Assembly (NCBI GenBank): GCA_003245835.1
Contig: QKCC01000258.1
Location: 1 to 35,806, forward strand
Reading direction: 5' to 3'
Source of the DNA: Spirochaetales bacterium
Lineage (GTDB): Bacteria > Spirochaetota > Spirochaetia > UBA9216
DNA length: 35,806 nt
The notes under the pieces were generated by a model, which worked only from the letters and a program-made list of their open reading frames with translations, made no database searches and was not told the DNA's origin. Positions 14,449 to 34,567 of this stretch are shown in pieces (the first letter of the stretch is position 1; every line of letters starts with the position of its first letter). Position numbers and translations under genes: made by a program.

Positions 14449-15726
14449 CTAAAATACCGAATGCGTGTGCTGACGATCGTCAAATTCAATTTTTTCAAAT
14501 GGAACTGTTATTTTTATTGATATGGCATCATCAGTATCATTTAAATCAAAAGTACCCTTAAGCTGTTTGGACACAAGTAAATTAACAAGGTTGAAACCGA
14601 CAGTATTATTTACAATTCCTGGTAATTTATAATCAGTTTTATTTTGCTCATCATTAATATTGATTTCAAGGATATCATCCTTCTGGAGTTTTGCAATTAA
14701 CTGAAGTTTTAGTAAACTATTCTCTGAAGATATACTCAAATAAATATTCATCAGTACTTCATTCAATATCAGTCCCAGCGATATTGAAAGTTCCAATGGA
14801 ATCCTATGATCTTCAACTTGCATTTCTATTTTAAAGCTGCTTCTATCTGCTTTAAGAATATCCAGCATATGTTCATATATATCATTAAAATAATTTCTTA
14901 ACGATATGAATCGTAAATCCCCTGAAGAATAAAGCCTGTTGTGAACAAGCGACATAGTGTTAATCTGAGAATAGATTTTAAGAAGAGTCTCTTTTTCCTC
15001 TTTGGAAACATTTAAAGGATCAAGTTGAATATGCAAAAGTGAACTTATAAGCTGTAAATTATTATTTGTCCGATGATACAGTTCCCTAATGAGTATGTTT
15101 TTTTCTTTCAGATTCTGCTTTATATGTTTGGTTCTTTTCCTGACTTTATCCTCAAGATTCTGATTTTGCTGTTCAAGTTCGTTTCTATAATAATCAATGA
15201 TTATTCTGATTGCGATATTAACCAGACAGAAAAAAATATTAAAGAAATACCAGGATGTAAATTGAACAACAGTTACATATGCTGTGAATACGAATATGAA
15301 AATTATGAACACGTTCTCTAAAATGGTTAAAACAACTACCTGCTTTGTATTTAAAAAAAGTGTGGCTATAAAAACAGTTGTAAGAACCCATGCAAATGAA
15401 AGGTAGTTAAATATTCCGTCAGTATCAAAAACAAAAATTATTAATGAAGAGGTAATATAGAGGGTACCTATAAGAATGAGGCCCCCAACTTTATGATTTA
15501 TATTTCTTGTTATTATATATCCTGCGAGTAGAACAGGTAAACAAATCAAAAGAGGCTTCACGACTTGTGCAGGAGCCTTAAAAACTCCTGCGATGTAAGT
15601 TAATATAAGTATTATATAAATTGAAAGCAGTATTGTGACACCTTGATTTTCCCAATTCCTGGGACGAGAATACTTTGATTTTAATAATGCACTACTAAAT
15701 AACAAAAATATATTATTTTTCATCAT
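14449..15726 (-). CDS. membrane histidine kinase, HisKA_2 type, with weakened ATPase domain
   Basis: Of 425 residues, the first 180 form about six membrane helices. A coiled linker follows (180-210), then a HisKA_2 dimerisation/phosphoacceptor domain with ELYHRTNNNLQLISSLL, whose H218 is the likely phosphorylation site. The C-terminal HATPase domain is recognisable from the helix SLGLILNEVLMNIY (about 317-328) and a VGFNLVNLL lid-helix motif (376-384). However, the usual TNAxKHA half of the N-box is absent, and the G1 box, normally DNG, reads NDEQNKT. ATP binding may be impaired, or the protein may act as a scaffold. No response regulator is adjacent. The gene is very AT-rich (14 G/C in bases 15181-15240), unlike the secDF genes beside it, suggesting acquisition. 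Confidence 0.72.
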   Translation of the reverse strand: MMKNNIFLLFSSALLKSKYSRPRNWENQGVTILLSIYIILILTYIAGVFKAPAQVVKPLLICLPVLLAGYIITRNINHKVGGLILIGTLYITSSLIIFVFDTDGIFNYLSFAWVLTTVFIATLFLNTKQVVVLTILENVFIIFIFVFTAYVTVVQFTSWYFFNIFFCLVNIAIRIIIDYYRNELEQQNQNLEDKVRKRTKHIKQNLKEKNILIRELYHRTNNNLQLISSLLHIQLDPLNVSKEEKETLLKIYSQINTMSLVHNRLYSSGDLRFISLRNYFNDIYEHMLDILKADRSSFKIEMQVEDHRIPLELSISLGLILNEVLMNIYLSISSENSLLKLQLIAKLQKDDILEININDEQNKTDYKLPGIVNNTVGFNLVNLLVSKQLKGTFDLNDTDDAISIKITVPFEKIEFDDRQHTHSVF

Positions 15727-29169: not shown

Positions 29170-30081
29170 ATGACAGACAGGAGAAGAGTTATTATTCCAT
29201 TTCTTATCATCGGTATAGTCATTATCCTCACAGTCCTTTCGCTTCCGTTCCTGATTTCAGGACAGGTGGCAGCTATTCCAGTCTCATACTTTTTTGAACA
29301 AAATATTCCAAACCATAAACCGCATTACGAGAACAATGCTTTTTCGGTAATGACGCTGAACCTGGGGCACGGCAGGGGAACGGGCATGCATCAAATCCTT
29401 CAGGGCCGCAGCGGAATAAGCCGTAATGCCGATACCGTAGCCGGAACAATCAAAAGAGAGCATGTTGATATAACAGCACTGCAGGAAGTCGACGGACCGG
29501 GATTCTGGAACGGCGGACTCGATCTGATTGAACACCTTGCCGAAAGTTCCGGCTGCCCGCACGGGATCTGGACAAAAAACGTCGAAACTGCGGCGCTCAG
29601 CTACGGCACGGCAATTCTGAGCGACTTCCCCTACGCGCATGCGGAATCATATACATTTAAGGCAAGGCCTTTCATCCTTCCCAAGGGGTTCACTATCGGG
29701 ATTTTCAAGGTATCGGAAAATCCGGAACAGCATGTTTGCGTGGTTTCGGTACACCTTGGTCCGTTTCTGCCGGCAATGCGGCGGGTTCAGGCAAGAATAA
29801 TGATTGAATACCTGAAGGAAGTCAATTACCCGATAGTAATTGCCGGCGATTTCAACTGCGGCGTCAATGCTCGATCCGCCTTAAATCTGATCTGCGGCGA
29901 ACTTAATCTGAAAGCATGGAAACCCGGGGCGAATAACCTCGGCACGCATTTTCCGGGAAACAGGAGACTCGACTGGATTCTGATTTCTGATGAACTGGAA
30001 TTTCTGGATTACAGGGTTATAGAGGAAAGATTATCGGATCACAGCGCAGTAAGGGCTGTAATCCGATACCCGCACGATTAA
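29170..30081 (+). CDS. endonuclease/exonuclease/phosphatase (EEP) family hydrolase with N-terminal membrane helix
   Basis: The 303-residue metal-dependent phosphodiesterase fold is complete: N64 in TLNLGHG, E106 in LQEVDG, H195 in SVHLGP, D227 and N229 in AGDFN, D268 in RLDWILIS, and D290-H291 in SDHSAV. Residues 7-30 form one membrane helix, so the enzyme domain is probably outside the cytoplasmic membrane. EEP proteins cleave nucleic acids, phosphoinositides, sphingomyelin or other phosphodiesters; a lipid substrate would fit the patatin and envelope neighbours, which is inference. No ribosome site precedes the ATG. Its stop overlaps that of rubredoxin. Confidence 0.85.
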
Positions 30082-30239
30082 TCTTCAGGAGAAAAATCGT
30101 CTTTAGAAGCGCCGCAGAGCGGACATACCCAATCTTCCGGAAGATCAGCAAAAGCTGTTCCCGGATCTACACCGTTATCCGGATCACCTTCTTCCGGGTC
30201 ATACACATAACCGCAGACGTCGCATACATATTTCGTCAT
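30078..30239 (-). CDS. rubredoxin
   Basis: The 53-residue one-iron electron carrier has the two CxxC pairs C6-C9 ([10 protein letters not shown]) and C39-C42 (CPLCG), with the typical core PEDWVCP. AAGGAG fits the ATG at 30239; reading further upstream adds unlikely sequence. It is 20 bases downstream of superoxide reductase, which rubredoxin reduces in anaerobes. Its TAA overlaps the stop of the convergent EEP gene. Confidence 0.96.
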
Positions 30240-30259: not shown

Positions 30260-30637
30260 TTAAGCTTTCCACAAACCGTGGATATTACAATATTCACGGG
30301 CTGTTACAGTTTTATGATGACCGCAGAGAAATTCCGCTATCGGCTGGTCGCCGGGAGACAGAAATTTCTTGCAGGTACTGCCGTCGAAATTCAGTTCAAT
30401 CCACTGAATATAGTGTTCTTCCGTCATAGGATGCAGGGTGCTGCCGACAGTTACCTTGTATCCACCGTCGATTTTTTCGACAACCGGAACGTGCTTTTCA
30501 ACTGATGAATCAGCTGACTTCTCTACCATCAATTCCATTGGCTGGCCGCAGCAGACAAGCTCTCCGCCTCCTACATGAACCAACTCCACAATATTACCGC
30601 AGAGGTTACATTTGTAAATCTCTTTTTTCGCAGCCAT
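30260..30637 (-). CDS. dfx: desulfoferrodoxin (two-iron superoxide reductase)
   Basis: The 125-residue enzyme reduces superoxide to peroxide without making oxygen, an anaerobe's defence. The N-terminal desulforedoxin centre has C10, C13, C29 and C30. The active centre has H49, H69, H75, C117 and H120, with E47 and K48 in EKHVPV; these positions match the known two-iron enzymes almost exactly. AAGGAG overlaps the stop of the preceding TIGR02757 gene, so translation is coupled. Rubredoxin, its electron donor, follows. Confidence 0.96.
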
Positions 30638-30641
30638 CTTT

Positions 30642-31439
30642 TTACTCCTTATAGTTTTCCAGTTCTGAATAATCCAGAGCCGGATGGATTCCTATTCGGG
30701 ACATACTAAAATCATATCTTACGGGATCCTCTTTGTCAATTAATTTGAGTCCTTCCGTTATCTCAACCGCTGTTTTAAAATCCGCGGACTTTCTTTCAGT
30801 AAGGCCGAGATAACTGCTGACCCGCATTACATGAGTATCGAGAGGAATTATCAGCTCGGATTCAGGCAGATTCCAGAAACCCGGGTCTATGCTGTCATTT
30901 CTGACAACCCAGCGCAGAAAAAGGAAAAGGCGCTTGCACGCGCTGCCGCTCCTGGGGTTCGAAACCACATTCCGGGGACTCCCCCCGCGGTTTACAGCAT
31001 CGGCAACCGCAGTGAGCCCGGCAAGGACAGGAAGCTCCGGGAAATCACCGCTTCCGGCCTTTTCATACCCAAGCATAAAGCAGGTCTCAATGCTTCCGTA
31101 TTCGAGATAGATTCTCCTTAGACCCTGCATAAAATGAATTATATCGGCTTCCGAATAAAACCTGTATTTGAATCCCGCAAATAAACCGGCAAGCTCATCT
31201 TCTGATCGTTTTGTAAGCCCTTCTGCAGGAGAACCAAGCACATTAAATATACTTTCGAGAAATTTTAGAATCAGGTTCACCCTGCCCAGAGCGAACGATG
31301 CGGCAATAAAGGCCGAAGCCTCGATATCAGGGCTGCTGCTGAACCTGCGGGGAAAAAGCAGGGGATCCGGATCTATGTATTCCGGCTTGTGGTACCGCTG
31401 GTAATAGTCATTGAGAAGGTCTGCCGCCTTGTTAGTCAT
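30642..31439 (-). CDS. TIGR02757 family protein of unknown function
   Basis: This 265-residue conserved bacterial protein is recognised by [21 protein letters not shown] (split as [11 protein letters not shown] and [10 protein letters not shown]), [20 protein letters not shown] and FSMSRIGIH near the end. The helical pattern with a conserved Asp recalls the HhH-GPD DNA glycosylase fold, but no activity is established to my knowledge. It starts 18 bases after the WYL-kinase stop and leads into dfx, so all four genes may be one operon. No clear Shine-Dalgarno; coupling to the upstream gene is possible. Confidence 0.85.
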
Positions 31440-31457: not shown

Positions 31458-32789
31458 CTATTTGGGGAATTCAAGCACAAAAATATTTTTTTTGTATGAT
31501 ACCGTACACTCAAGCTGCCTGCAGAAATTTCTGATAATATCCGACCCGCAGGTATCTCCTTCAGCGCCGAGTCTGAAGCCGCTGCCGCCGTCGCTGTAGC
31601 GCAGCGTGATCACCCCGTTGACTCCTGTGATGCCGATATTTACAGACGGAGGCCCCTCACCCGCGGAGTGCTTGAAACTGTTGGTAATAAGTTCCGCAAT
31701 GATCATTCCCAGAGGCAAAGCCTTTGATGAGCGAAGCGCAATATTATCAATCTTTATCCGCTTCTTAACTTCTTCATGATCAACAGATACAATTTTTATT
31801 GCCTTCAGTACAAGATCATTTATGAACTCGTAAAGATTGACCGAATCACTGCCGGGGGCCTGGGCCAGCTGCTCATGAATCAGTGCGATTGCATCCACCC
31901 GGCTCTGAAGGTTTCTGACCCTGAATTTCAGATCATCGTCCTCAATATCAGAGAAAGTAATATCTATAAGTCCGGCTGTCATAAACAGGCTGTTCTTTAT
32001 ACGGTGGTTGGACTCCTGAATATTCAGTTCATCAACACGAGCCTCGTTGATGAGCGGCCTGCTGCAGAGTGCGTATTCAGATATGGGACAGAAAAGATGC
32101 TGATAACCGTTTTCAATATCTATTTTTGTAACAGGGTAAACTATAGCAGCAAAGTCGGCAACATTCAGATAACACAACCCCCCGGTCCGCCTGCAGATCC
32201 CCTGCACAGCCAGGACCGATTTATCAATACCGTCTTTTACAGTGAAGAATTTACGCGGCTCAAACAGCGACGTACAGCTCTCGCCCGTGGATTTATGCAG
32301 ATACGAAATTCCTGCTGAAGAATTATTCAGCCATGCACGTGAAAGCTTTTCAAAATATTCTACATAGCCCTTCGAGTAGGTAGATTCTTCTACATCGAGC
32401 GTTTCGGCAGCTTCAAGAAAACTCGTTGAAAGTATCGGGGAAGTATCTTTATAAGCTTCCGAAAGCTTCCTCATTACCGAAGACGCATGCGGATTCTTTA
32501 TATTTATTTCCTGCTGGTACAGCTTAATCAGAGACAACATGAATGTGCCTTCGGTGGGACTGAAATTCATTTTATTGTTAGGCCTGCTGTCGCTCTCGAG
32601 CCCTATCAGGCTGTTCTTTTCCCAGAGCGGAAGCCGGAGACTGAGCTGATCAATATACCGGCCTACTGTGGAACGGTGAACACCGAGTCTGCGCGCAATC
32701 TCTGCCCTGCGCAGACCTTCCGGGTGTGTTTTTAGCATTATTGTCAGCTGCTGAAGCCTGTTATGCTTGTTGTCACTTTTTGTTGTCAT
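31458..32789 (-). CDS. WYL-type transcription factor fused to a HisKA_2 histidine kinase
   Basis: The 443-residue soluble protein has four parts. (1) Residues 10-56: HTH_11-type helix-turn-helix, GLRRAEIARRLGVHRSTVGR. (2) 75-115: the helical linker seen in WYL regulators (FSPTEGTFMLSLIKLY, PHASSVMRKLSEAY). (3) 158-225: a WYL-like core (ISYLHKSTGE, SLFEPRKFF, then CRRTGGLCYLNV), degenerate. (4) 255-443: HisKA_2 with H262 in ESNHRIKNSL, an N-box with N370 and H374 in ELITNSFKHS, and G1 box SDGGSGF with D400. The usual WCX tail is replaced by the kinase. It could therefore bind DNA, sense a ligand and be phosphorylated in one chain. No membrane segment and no receiver gene nearby. It probably heads the dfx operon. 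Confidence 0.8.
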   Translation of the reverse strand: MTTKSDNKHNRLQQLTIMLKTHPEGLRRAEIARRLGVHRSTVGRYIDQLSLRLPLWEKNSLIGLESDSRPNNKMNFSPTEGTFMLSLIKLYQQEINIKNPHASSVMRKLSEAYKDTSPILSTSFLEAAETLDVEESTYSKGYVEYFEKLSRAWLNNSSAGISYLHKSTGESCTSLFEPRKFFTVKDGIDKSVLAVQGICRRTGGLCYLNVADFAAIVYPVTKIDIENGYQHLFCPISEYALCSRPLINEARVDELNIQESNHRIKNSLFMTAGLIDITFSDIEDDDLKFRVRNLQSRVDAIALIHEQLAQAPGSDSVNLYEFINDLVLKAIKIVSVDHEEVKKRIKIDNIALRSSKALPLGMIIAELITNSFKHSAGEGPPSVNIGITGVNGVITLRYSDGGSGFRLGAEGDTCGSDIIRNFCRQLECTVSYKKNIFVLEFPK

Positions 32790-32814
32790 ATTTCAGACTA
32801 TTTTACAGCCATTA

Positions 32815-32833
32815 TGTTGCATTAATCGCAACA
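32815..32833. promoter_or_regulatory. inverted repeat upstream of the WYL-kinase gene
   Basis: TGTTGC and GCAACA arms with a seven-base AT-rich centre (ATTAATC), 25 bases before the ATG. A plausible self-binding site for the protein's helix-turn-helix. I could not assign a convincing -35/-10 pair. Confidence 0.5.
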
Positions 32834-32856
32834 ATTTTTTTTTATCAGTGCTTATA

Positions 32857-33315
32857 CTATATTTTTTTAAGTATTTTAGCGATTTTTACGGGTTCTATTC
32901 TGAAAGGACTTCCTTTACCCTGAAAAAATCCATGTTCCCTGATCATATGGATACCGAGATCGGTATAGCAAAATTCAGACCCGTCTTCCCTGTCCTGAAT
33001 AGTAATGACCGTTTTCCTGAAAAGTCCGGGATGATCGAACGGACAGGGAAGCTTCCCCCTGATTGAGTCGGCTTTAACCAGAAATCCGTCACCAAGATTG
33101 ACGAAATTTCCAAGGCCCTTCAGCGCAGTATCCCTGATTTCCTCAAGTTTAATCGCTATCACGATAGCATTAACACCGAGCCGGTCAAGTTCAGCCGCAT
33201 CGTGCTCTATGATTGCATCAAGTGAACGTGAATCCTTACCCATAAAACCGTGCAGAGAAATAACGCCCGGTTTCATATTTTCAATTACCTTATGTAATGC
33301 AGGATTTTCTTTCAT
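32857..33315 (-). CDS. unrecognised conserved-looking protein, 152 residues
   Basis: The start is well supported: GGAGG is six bases before the ATG at 33315. The protein is soluble, with no signal or membrane helix. It reads like a compact alpha/beta domain: strand PGVISLHGFMGKD, helix SLDAIIEHDAAELDRLG, strand NAIVIAIKL, then a beta-rich half with GNFVNLGDGFLVKADSIRG, KTVITIQDREDG and CYTDLGIHMIREHG. The single His/Cys residues are not arranged as an obvious metal site. I do not recognise the family. It lies between the nqr operon and the WYL-kinase gene, both on the same strand; a hairpin-rich stretch precedes it and 67 bases follow. Confidence 0.7.
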   Translation of the reverse strand: MKENPALHKVIENMKPGVISLHGFMGKDSRSLDAIIEHDAAELDRLGVNAIVIAIKLEEIRDTALKGLGNFVNLGDGFLVKADSIRGKLPCPFDHPGLFRKTVITIQDREDGSEFCYTDLGIHMIREHGFFQGKGSPFRIEPVKIAKILKKI

Positions 33316-33457: not shown

Positions 33458-34567
33458 TCAGGCGAATTTATCATAAAAAATCAGCTCCTCCGGAACACCT
33501 TTCTCCGTAAGAACCTTTATACAGGCGTCAATCATACCGGGGCTGCCGCAGAGGTAAGCCTCAACATTATCACCGGATTTGAGGTATCTGCCGACTGCAT
33601 CGGTAACAAAACCGGTCTCACCCTTCCATGAGTCCCCCTCATCGGGATTAGAAAGCACGGGTATATATTTGTAGTTGGGCAGGCGTTCAGAAATAGCCGC
33701 CATTTCATCAGGCAGAACAAGGTCTTTTATACCGCGTGCCCCGTAAAAATAACTGACTTTCCGCTGGTTGCCCTTTTCGGCCATGTCGAGCAGGATCGAT
33801 TTTATCGGGGCGTTTCCCGACCCGCCGGCTATACAGATAACATCCCTCTGTGTATCTCTGAGAAAGAAGTCTCCGTAGGGTCCGTTGATCGTTACCTCAT
33901 CGCCTTCCTTCAGGAACTGGTGTACCCAGGTGGTACAGATTCCCTCGGGAACAAGCCGGATCTCAAGCTCTACTACATTCTTGTCGGACGGGACCGACGA
34001 CATGGAATATGCCCGAAAAACCTGCTCATCACTGAGCTTGTATTCCGGAACAAGTATCTGAACAAACTGCCCGGCCTTATACTCGATATTATCCGGAGCA
34101 AGCAGTTTGAACCGGACTTCCTTTATATCGTGGGTCAGGTCCTTTATGCTCTCAACCTTCGTCCTGAACTGTCTGACACTGAATAATTCCTCTGGAATCC
34201 TGATGCTCATATCGGACTTTACCTTGAGCTGACAGGACAGCCTGACATTCTCGGCCTGCTCTTCCTTGCTTATCCAGGGCAGTTCGGTCGGCAGGTACTG
34301 TCCGGCACCGCTCTCGACGCGGACCTTGCACAAGCCGCAGGAACCGCGGCCTCCGCAGGCTGACGGAATAAATATTTCTTCAGCCATCAGCGTAGAGAGA
34401 AGCGACCGACCGCCCTTCACGACGAGTTCTTTTTTATCGTTGACCGTTACCTTGCATTCGCCGTAATTGGCAATGAAGGCGTCAGCCACAACCAGAATTA
34501 TTGAAAGTACAATTGTCAGGGCTGTAATTGCCCCGATGCTGATAAGTAATGCAGTAATAGAAAACAC
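33458..34567 (-). CDS. nqrF: Na+-translocating NADH:quinone reductase subunit F
   Basis: The 369-residue protein takes electrons from NADH via FAD to a 2Fe-2S centre and feeds the sodium-pumping complex. It has one N-terminal membrane helix (6-30), a plant-type ferredoxin domain with C71, C77, C80 and C112, then the ferredoxin reductase-like part with FRAYSMSS (FAD) and GGSGNAPIKSIL (NADH) and the end YDKFA. It is about 40 residues shorter than the Vibrio enzyme but all cofactor motifs are there. The start is GTG at 34567 with AGGAGG at 34578-34573, overlapping the nqrE stop. The fused 2Fe-2S/FAD subunit marks the complex as Nqr, not Rnf. Confidence 0.95.
   Translation of the reverse strand: MFSITALLISIGAITALTIVLSIILVVADAFIANYGECKVTVNDKKELVVKGGRSLLSTLMAEEIFIPSACGGRGSCGLCKVRVESGAGQYLPTELPWISKEEQAENVRLSCQLKVKSDMSIRIPEELFSVRQFRTKVESIKDLTHDIKEVRFKLLAPDNIEYKAGQFVQILVPEYKLSDEQVFRAYSMSSVPSDKNVVELEIRLVPEGICTTWVHQFLKEGDEVTINGPYGDFFLRDTQRDVICIAGGSGNAPIKSILLDMAEKGNQRKVSYFYGARGIKDLVLPDEMAAISERLPNYKYIPVLSNPDEGDSWKGETGFVTDAVGRYLKSGDNVEAYLCGSPGMIDACIKVLTEKGVPEELIFYDKFA

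Follow-up and report, generated by a model that had tools for sequence, protein, structure and literature searches.

The window, by which we mean the whole stretch of 35,806 nucleotides analysed here, comes from an uncultured spirochaete and contains, at positions 31458..32789 of the minus strand, a single uninterrupted open reading frame (ATG at 32789, stop at 31458) for a protein of 443 residues with the domain order HTH-WYL-HisKA_2-HATPase. This fusion gene is the first of a tight minus-strand run, being followed after 18 nt by the gene for a DUF2400/TIGR02757 protein (30642..31439, −), after another 4 nt by that for a superoxide reductase (desulfoferrodoxin; 30260..30637, −) and then by that for a rubredoxin (30078..30239, −). 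The initial annotation had suggested that superoxide reductase and rubredoxin belong to an operon led by the fusion gene, and the gene order bears this out, with the DUF2400 gene lying in between; the operon as a whole is an oxygen-defence unit. In front of the fusion gene are found a gene for a conserved 152-residue protein (32857..33315, −), having no match in Pfam or NCBIfam, and the gene for an NqrF-type flavoprotein subunit (33458..34567, −), which was used as the anchor for synteny. The 152-residue protein is encoded directly behind NqrF in six of the seven genomes of the family, and also in the families f6 and f25, and it may belong to the Nqr function. A second, distant HisKA_2-type match (E 4e-5) was seen elsewhere in the window, at 14728-15105 (−) in a 425-residue open frame.

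Domain architecture of the fusion protein

The two ends of the protein were identified by Pfam directly. What had earlier been described as an HTH_11-like motif was matched by HTH_11 at residues 11-50 (32640..32759, −) with 26.7 bits against a cut-off of 25, and according to the alignments this head carries the stretch RRAEIARRxGxHRSTVGRYID, nearly invariant across the fusions and their WYL relatives. The HisKA_2 phosphoacceptor domain, likewise recognized at the outset together with H262, gave an E-value of 6e-16 at residues 259-332 (31794..32015, −; H262 codon at 32004-32006, −) and aligned with the HisKA_2 kinases of the same genome, which encodes many of them. Behind it lies a GHKL ATPase domain at residues 358-442 (31464..31718, −) with an N box ELITN, a G1 box DGGSG and a G2-like glycine, G415, of which the part at residues 358-405 was weakly matched by HATPase_c.

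No WYL domain was called directly in the protein by the Pfam or NCBIfam scans, and a PDB profile search gave weak matches only, at the level of the HTH. Because Pfam was silent on the middle region, that region was tested by other means. Using hhalign, residues 60-245 of three fusions (the window protein and the two orthologues described below) were found to match HTH-WYL-WCX proteins, several of which score above the Pfam cut-offs for WYL and WCX, with a probability of 96.9 and an E-value of 1.6e-10 over 152 columns. An AlphaFold2 model, for which the input alignment included rows from the loci L012, L013, L016 and L022, contained a confident HTH, a helical segment (residues 78-131; 32397..32558, −), five strands at residues 159-217, a pair of long DHp-type helices and an ATPase domain of alpha/beta fold; the mean pLDDT of 75 and pTM of 0.41 make the arrangement of these domains unreliable. 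With this model, Foldseek matched PafBC, BrxR, CapW and DriD, as well as the histidine kinase EL346. Even with no direct Pfam match, the WYL region of the initial annotation was thereby recovered as a WYL-type five-strand barrel at residues 159-217 (32139..32315, −), which contains C172, C199 and C206. In BrxR, the segment equivalent to the helical one (71-119) contributes to dimerisation (PMC9122589).

The WCX domain was indeed missing, as had been noted: neither Pfam nor the alignments gave a WCX match in the protein, and the HisKA_2-HATPase module stands in its place. The linker at residues 218-256 (32022..32138, −), containing C234, occupies the position that WCX has in the relatives, and residues 226-259 were modelled with pLDDT below 50. 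Pfam gave no STAS match in the protein. Judged by alignment only, the canonical basic residues of the WYL pocket are replaced, with the R200/K203 region reading GGLCYLNVADF in the fusion.

Orthologues and origin of the regulator half

When a single protein was used as query over the genome contigs nothing was retrieved, and an alignment query gave 80 loci. Two further assemblies of the genus (G004, UBA9216; G005, bin_125) proved to encode full-length orthologues, with 55% and 46% identity, bringing the known intact fusions to three. The order NqrF, 152-residue protein, fusion, DUF2400 and superoxide reductase is common to the orthologue loci, with a rubrerythrin gene inserted in G005, so that a search for the domain order combined with neighbour analysis recovered both the fusion and its synteny. 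A chimeric frame created by misassembly, which the initial annotation had named as a way in which its proposal could fail, or else a recent degenerate gene, might be suspected with a draft source assembly of 318 contigs and about 7% contamination, but is virtually inconceivable and can be considered refuted because two other assemblies carry the same fusion at 46-55% identity within the same gene order, the frame being open and the motifs conserved in all three. No further fusions were found in a 393-genome sample of the phylum, a draw that did not include G004 and G005, or in the families of G011 and G030.

Two genomes appear without the gene. In G003, of the same genus, it is missing between the gene for the 152-residue protein and DUF2400, and the gap retains TTGTTGCGCGTTTCGCAGCC, an operator-like sequence matching at 10 of 12 positions (see below), and encodes KNNFFILEFP, a stretch found unchanged at the C-terminus of the kinase half in the orthologue at locus L069; this gap is best read as a deletion of the fusion gene. 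G006 has just a short gap at the locus.

Relatives of the N-terminal half of the fusion were encoded in 123 of 395 genomes of the class, mostly as open reading frames of about 320-350 residues, and of the 36 members that were aligned, 29 gave a WCX match. In family f25 this locus is occupied by a protein of the HTH-WYL-WCX type, which comes after NqrF and the 152-residue frame and is followed by DUF2400 in G030 and by rubrerythrin and superoxide reductase in G066. The syntenic gene of family f6 (Marispirochaeta and its kin) encodes only 220-234 residues, having neither WCX nor kinase, with a Fur-family gene next and then superoxide reductase or rubrerythrin. Such short HTH-WYL forms lacking WCX (220-234 residues) were seen at the Nqr loci L059, L062 and L071, ahead of a Fur/PerR-type gene and then superoxide reductase or rubrerythrin. 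The fusion of a WYL regulator to a histidine kinase is thus real and conserved, and the locus holds an ordinary WYL regulator in related families. In a tree the fusions formed one clade (100/100), sister to the f6 short forms (93/85); this grouping is tentative since both are on long branches. The N-terminal half of the fusion descends from a Spirochaetia HTH-WYL-WCX regulator of the same locus, and the simplest history would be that WCX was lost, that the kinase was then gained in the genus, and that the gene was later lost in G003 and perhaps in G006. As the fusion branch is long, the function of its WYL unit may have changed.

The predicted operator and its promoter

Upstream of the fusion gene lies the palindrome TTGTTGC-GATTAAT-GCAACA (32815..32834, −), followed by a -10-like hexamer TAAAAT (32800..32805, −), 29 nt from the start of the palindrome. 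Should this -10-like box be genuine, the transcript would begin almost without a leader (32790-32805, −). A palindrome of the form TTGTTGC/CTGTTGC-N7-GCAACA was found directly upstream of all three fusion genes. The exact 12-base operator pattern had a sole genome-wide match in G004 and likewise in G005; the genome of the window had one additional exact match, within coding sequence, leaving the copy at the fusion promoter as the only non-coding one. Other exact matches in G000, G003 and G011 look like coincidences within coding sequences, as judged against open reading frames for the C276 match of G000 and for one site in G003, and from the sequence for the remainder.

The half-site was present upstream of 56 of 78 related WYL genes, as compared with 6% of random windows from the same loci and 5% of the regions upstream of other genes (p ~1e-50, a value that ignores relatedness and is indicative only). 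In each of the six promoters of fusion and f6 short-form genes, representing two families, the distance between the operator start and the -10-like hexamer was exactly 29 nt, an offset shared in 1 of 20,000 shuffles when relatedness is ignored. This fixed spacing would place the operator over the -35 region. A comparable arrangement is described for DriD in a 2025 preprint (PMC12340889), where the -35 of activated promoters is weak and is covered by a 20-bp pseudo-palindrome whose distance to the -10 is fixed, and the geometry from site to -10 resembles that of the fusion promoter. In Sphaerochaetaceae relatives, the half-site is instead located downstream of the TGGTATACT box, a position after a -10-like box that looks like repression, and the sign of regulation is uncertain because of this repressor-like geometry. 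The rubredoxin gene comes next at the WYL genes L082, L100, L107, L122, L126, L139, L141 and L146, mostly from Sphaerochaetaceae and relatives. At most of these loci TTGTTGCA-N-TTTGRTGC follows the TGGTATACT -10-like box, which suggests a repressor-type promoter.

The palindrome could also be a terminator, or a site of some other regulator. A terminator-like pattern was indeed called there on the plus strand, but its T tail falls on the strand opposite to the one that these genes would need and is not conserved at the orthologue loci L069 and L070, and the terminator reading was rejected. As the motif moreover goes with WYL genes in both Spirochaetia and Chloroflexi, some WYL-Cas3 genes included, we find it very improbable that the palindrome is anything other than the operator of the fusion. 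These comparisons lend good support to a predicted binding of this operator by the fusion protein, and because the operator is conserved the protein probably still binds DNA, at the ancestral site.

The WYL-Cas3 genes just mentioned are of a known kind. In G300, G221 and an Anaerolineae genome, large open frames with HTH-WYL proved to be WYL-Cas3 fusions, a combination described in 2014. HTH-WYL-WCX joined to Cas3 (HD plus helicase) was seen at L054 (723-3956, −), L055 (1462-4818, −) and L081 (3661-7329, +), with an exact operator copy directly upstream of L054 and L055 and about 470 nt upstream of L081. That WYL-Cas3 genes share this operator may be new.

Kinase half, redox signal and proposed mode of action

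Having no more than about 43-50% identity in their kinase halves, the three fusions nevertheless keep H262, an HRxKNS motif, N370, D400 and the G2-like G415 invariant. The N and G1 boxes had initially been called intact, which holds for ELITN and for the full DxGxG of the window protein (DGGSG); the G1 box reads DGGNN and DGENK in the orthologues at L069 and L070, so that the family as a whole cannot be said to have an intact G1. With G1 degenerate in two of three fusions, catalysis may be lost or dispensable. No F box could be recognized in the kinase half, and no receiver gene was found among the neighbouring genes scanned.

As for the signal, all three fusions have C172, C199, C206 and C234, which nearly all of 33 other aligned proteins lack at those columns, an argument built on three fusion sequences; f6 short forms have a cysteine near the position of C172 in sequence. 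By topology, three of the four would be placed on adjacent strands of the modelled barrel, and one might reasonably guess at a redox switch or a metal site. A gene for superoxide reductase, rubrerythrin or rubredoxin was located downstream on the same strand in 17 of 79 loci having a called WYL gene, and upstream in none. DNA damage, raised initially as an alternative signal, found no support, and a redox signal is favoured instead because of the invariant cysteines and the oxygen-defence operon.

The explanation that we consider somewhat better than evenly likely is that of an autoregulatory transcription factor of the cytoplasm, encoded by the first gene of an oxidative-defence operon. Its HTH dimer would bind TTGTTGC-N7-GCAACA, overlapping the -35 region of the promoter from which it is itself transcribed, thereby controlling DUF2400, superoxide reductase and rubredoxin, presumably by activation rather than repression. 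Derived from the HTH-WYL-WCX regulator of the same locus by loss of the WCX cap and subsequent gain of the HisKA_2-HATPase module, it would probably use this module as a new C-terminal dimer and as an ATP- or phosphorylation-dependent switch coupled to DNA binding, with the signal most likely entering as a redox change at the four cysteines of the WYL/linker region.

The kinase and the transcription factor are normally separate in two-component signalling. The initial annotation had proposed that the kinase might itself be the transcription factor, with its DNA binding controlled by ligand and by phosphorylation. The DNA-binding part of that idea is probably correct, the operator being conserved; the control by ligand and phosphorylation fared less well, with G1 degraded in the orthologues and the pocket residues replaced. 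Since the ancestral operator was kept in the promoter, the kinase may act as a gene switch without a separate receiver protein. In its fullest form, a DNA-bound histidine kinase would be a one-chain substitute for a two-component system, in which a refitted WYL barrel with its redox cysteines, together with a phospho-His or ATP-bound DHp-CA unit, sets the binding of the oxidative-defence promoter; this we advance tentatively, as possible at clearly less than an even chance.

An alternative, unlikely but to be taken seriously, is that the histidine-kinase half is no longer a working kinase and serves in place of WCX as a scaffold for dimerisation or ATP sensing, leaving in effect a one-component WYL regulator. 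The degenerate G1 boxes of both orthologues, the unrecognizable F box, the lack of a receiver gene among the neighbours checked and the f6 sister forms without any C-terminal domain agree with this, but the invariance of H262, HRxKNS, N370, D400 and the G2-like glycine in three of three proteins and the full DxGxG of the window copy do not. Less probable again is an ordinary sensor kinase in which WYL is the sensor, the HTH is vestigial and the receiver is encoded elsewhere: the genome is rich in HisKA_2 kinases, H262 is conserved and CapK, an HTH-STAS-GHKL kinase activated by ssDNA, offers a partial precedent (PMC13373217), but conservation extends to the recognition helix as well as to the operator in front of the fusion gene, and no receiver gene was seen among the neighbouring genes scanned.

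The autoregulatory WYL-kinase factor that we favour shares the HTH, the helical segment and the WYL-type barrel with PafBC, BrxR, CapW and DriD, and as in BrxR and DriD a palindromic site, in our case a predicted operator, lies at its own promoter. It differs from those four in lacking WCX and the canonical basic pocket residues, in its C-terminal HisKA_2-HATPase and in heading an oxidative-defence operon where theirs concern DNA damage or phage defence. HTH-WYL proteins without WCX are known as class B (Mueller et al. 2019, PMC6789036), and these, like the f6 short forms, resemble the fusion in that respect but have no kinase domain; the f6 forms also have the locus, operator and -10 spacing in common with it. 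With the HisKA_2/HWE kinases EL346 and Brucella LOV-HK it shares HisKA_2 with HRxKN and a GHKL ATPase (Foldseek E 1e-8), but their input is PAS/LOV whereas that of the fusion is a DNA-binding WYL unit, with a degenerate G1 in its relatives and no receiver nearby. CapK of the CapK-CapS system appears to be the nearest functional analogue found, having an N-terminal HTH, a middle sensing domain and a GHKL kinase in one chain and adjoining the operon that it controls; its sensing domain is STAS and not WYL, it is a Ser kinase without HisKA, it acts on a separate repressor, CapS, and deletion of its dispensable HTH has no effect (PMC13373217). No CapS partner was found among the neighbouring genes of the fusion. 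WYL-Cas3 fusions also combine a WYL unit with an enzyme domain, and in the portion of that source available to us the enzymes fused to WYL act on nucleic acid and include no kinase (Makarova et al. 2014, PMC4012209). A kinase fusion is likewise missing from the available portions of both surveys of WYL architectures (PMC6789036, PMC4012209). Our literature search, outside which lay most subscription papers and supplementary tables, gave no precedent for a WYL-kinase fusion, for WYL with superoxide reductase or for a DNA-binding histidine kinase.

An HTH-WYL regulator in which WCX is replaced by a histidine-kinase module, in an uncultured spirochaete, thus appears to be new, as does the palindrome TTGTTGC-N7-GCAACA in all three fusion promoters. 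A one-component regulator has here gained a kinase, with the ancestral operator remaining in its promoter. The exchange can be assigned to one particular locus, at which related genomes show what are likely to be its intermediate state (the short forms without WCX), its derived state (the fusion) and its loss (the G003 remnant), and this makes control of DNA binding by a kinase in cis directly testable. The operator, finally, gives a handle on an apparently unstudied family of WYL regulators whose genes, in spirochaetes, come ahead of those for superoxide reductase, rubrerythrin and rubredoxin.
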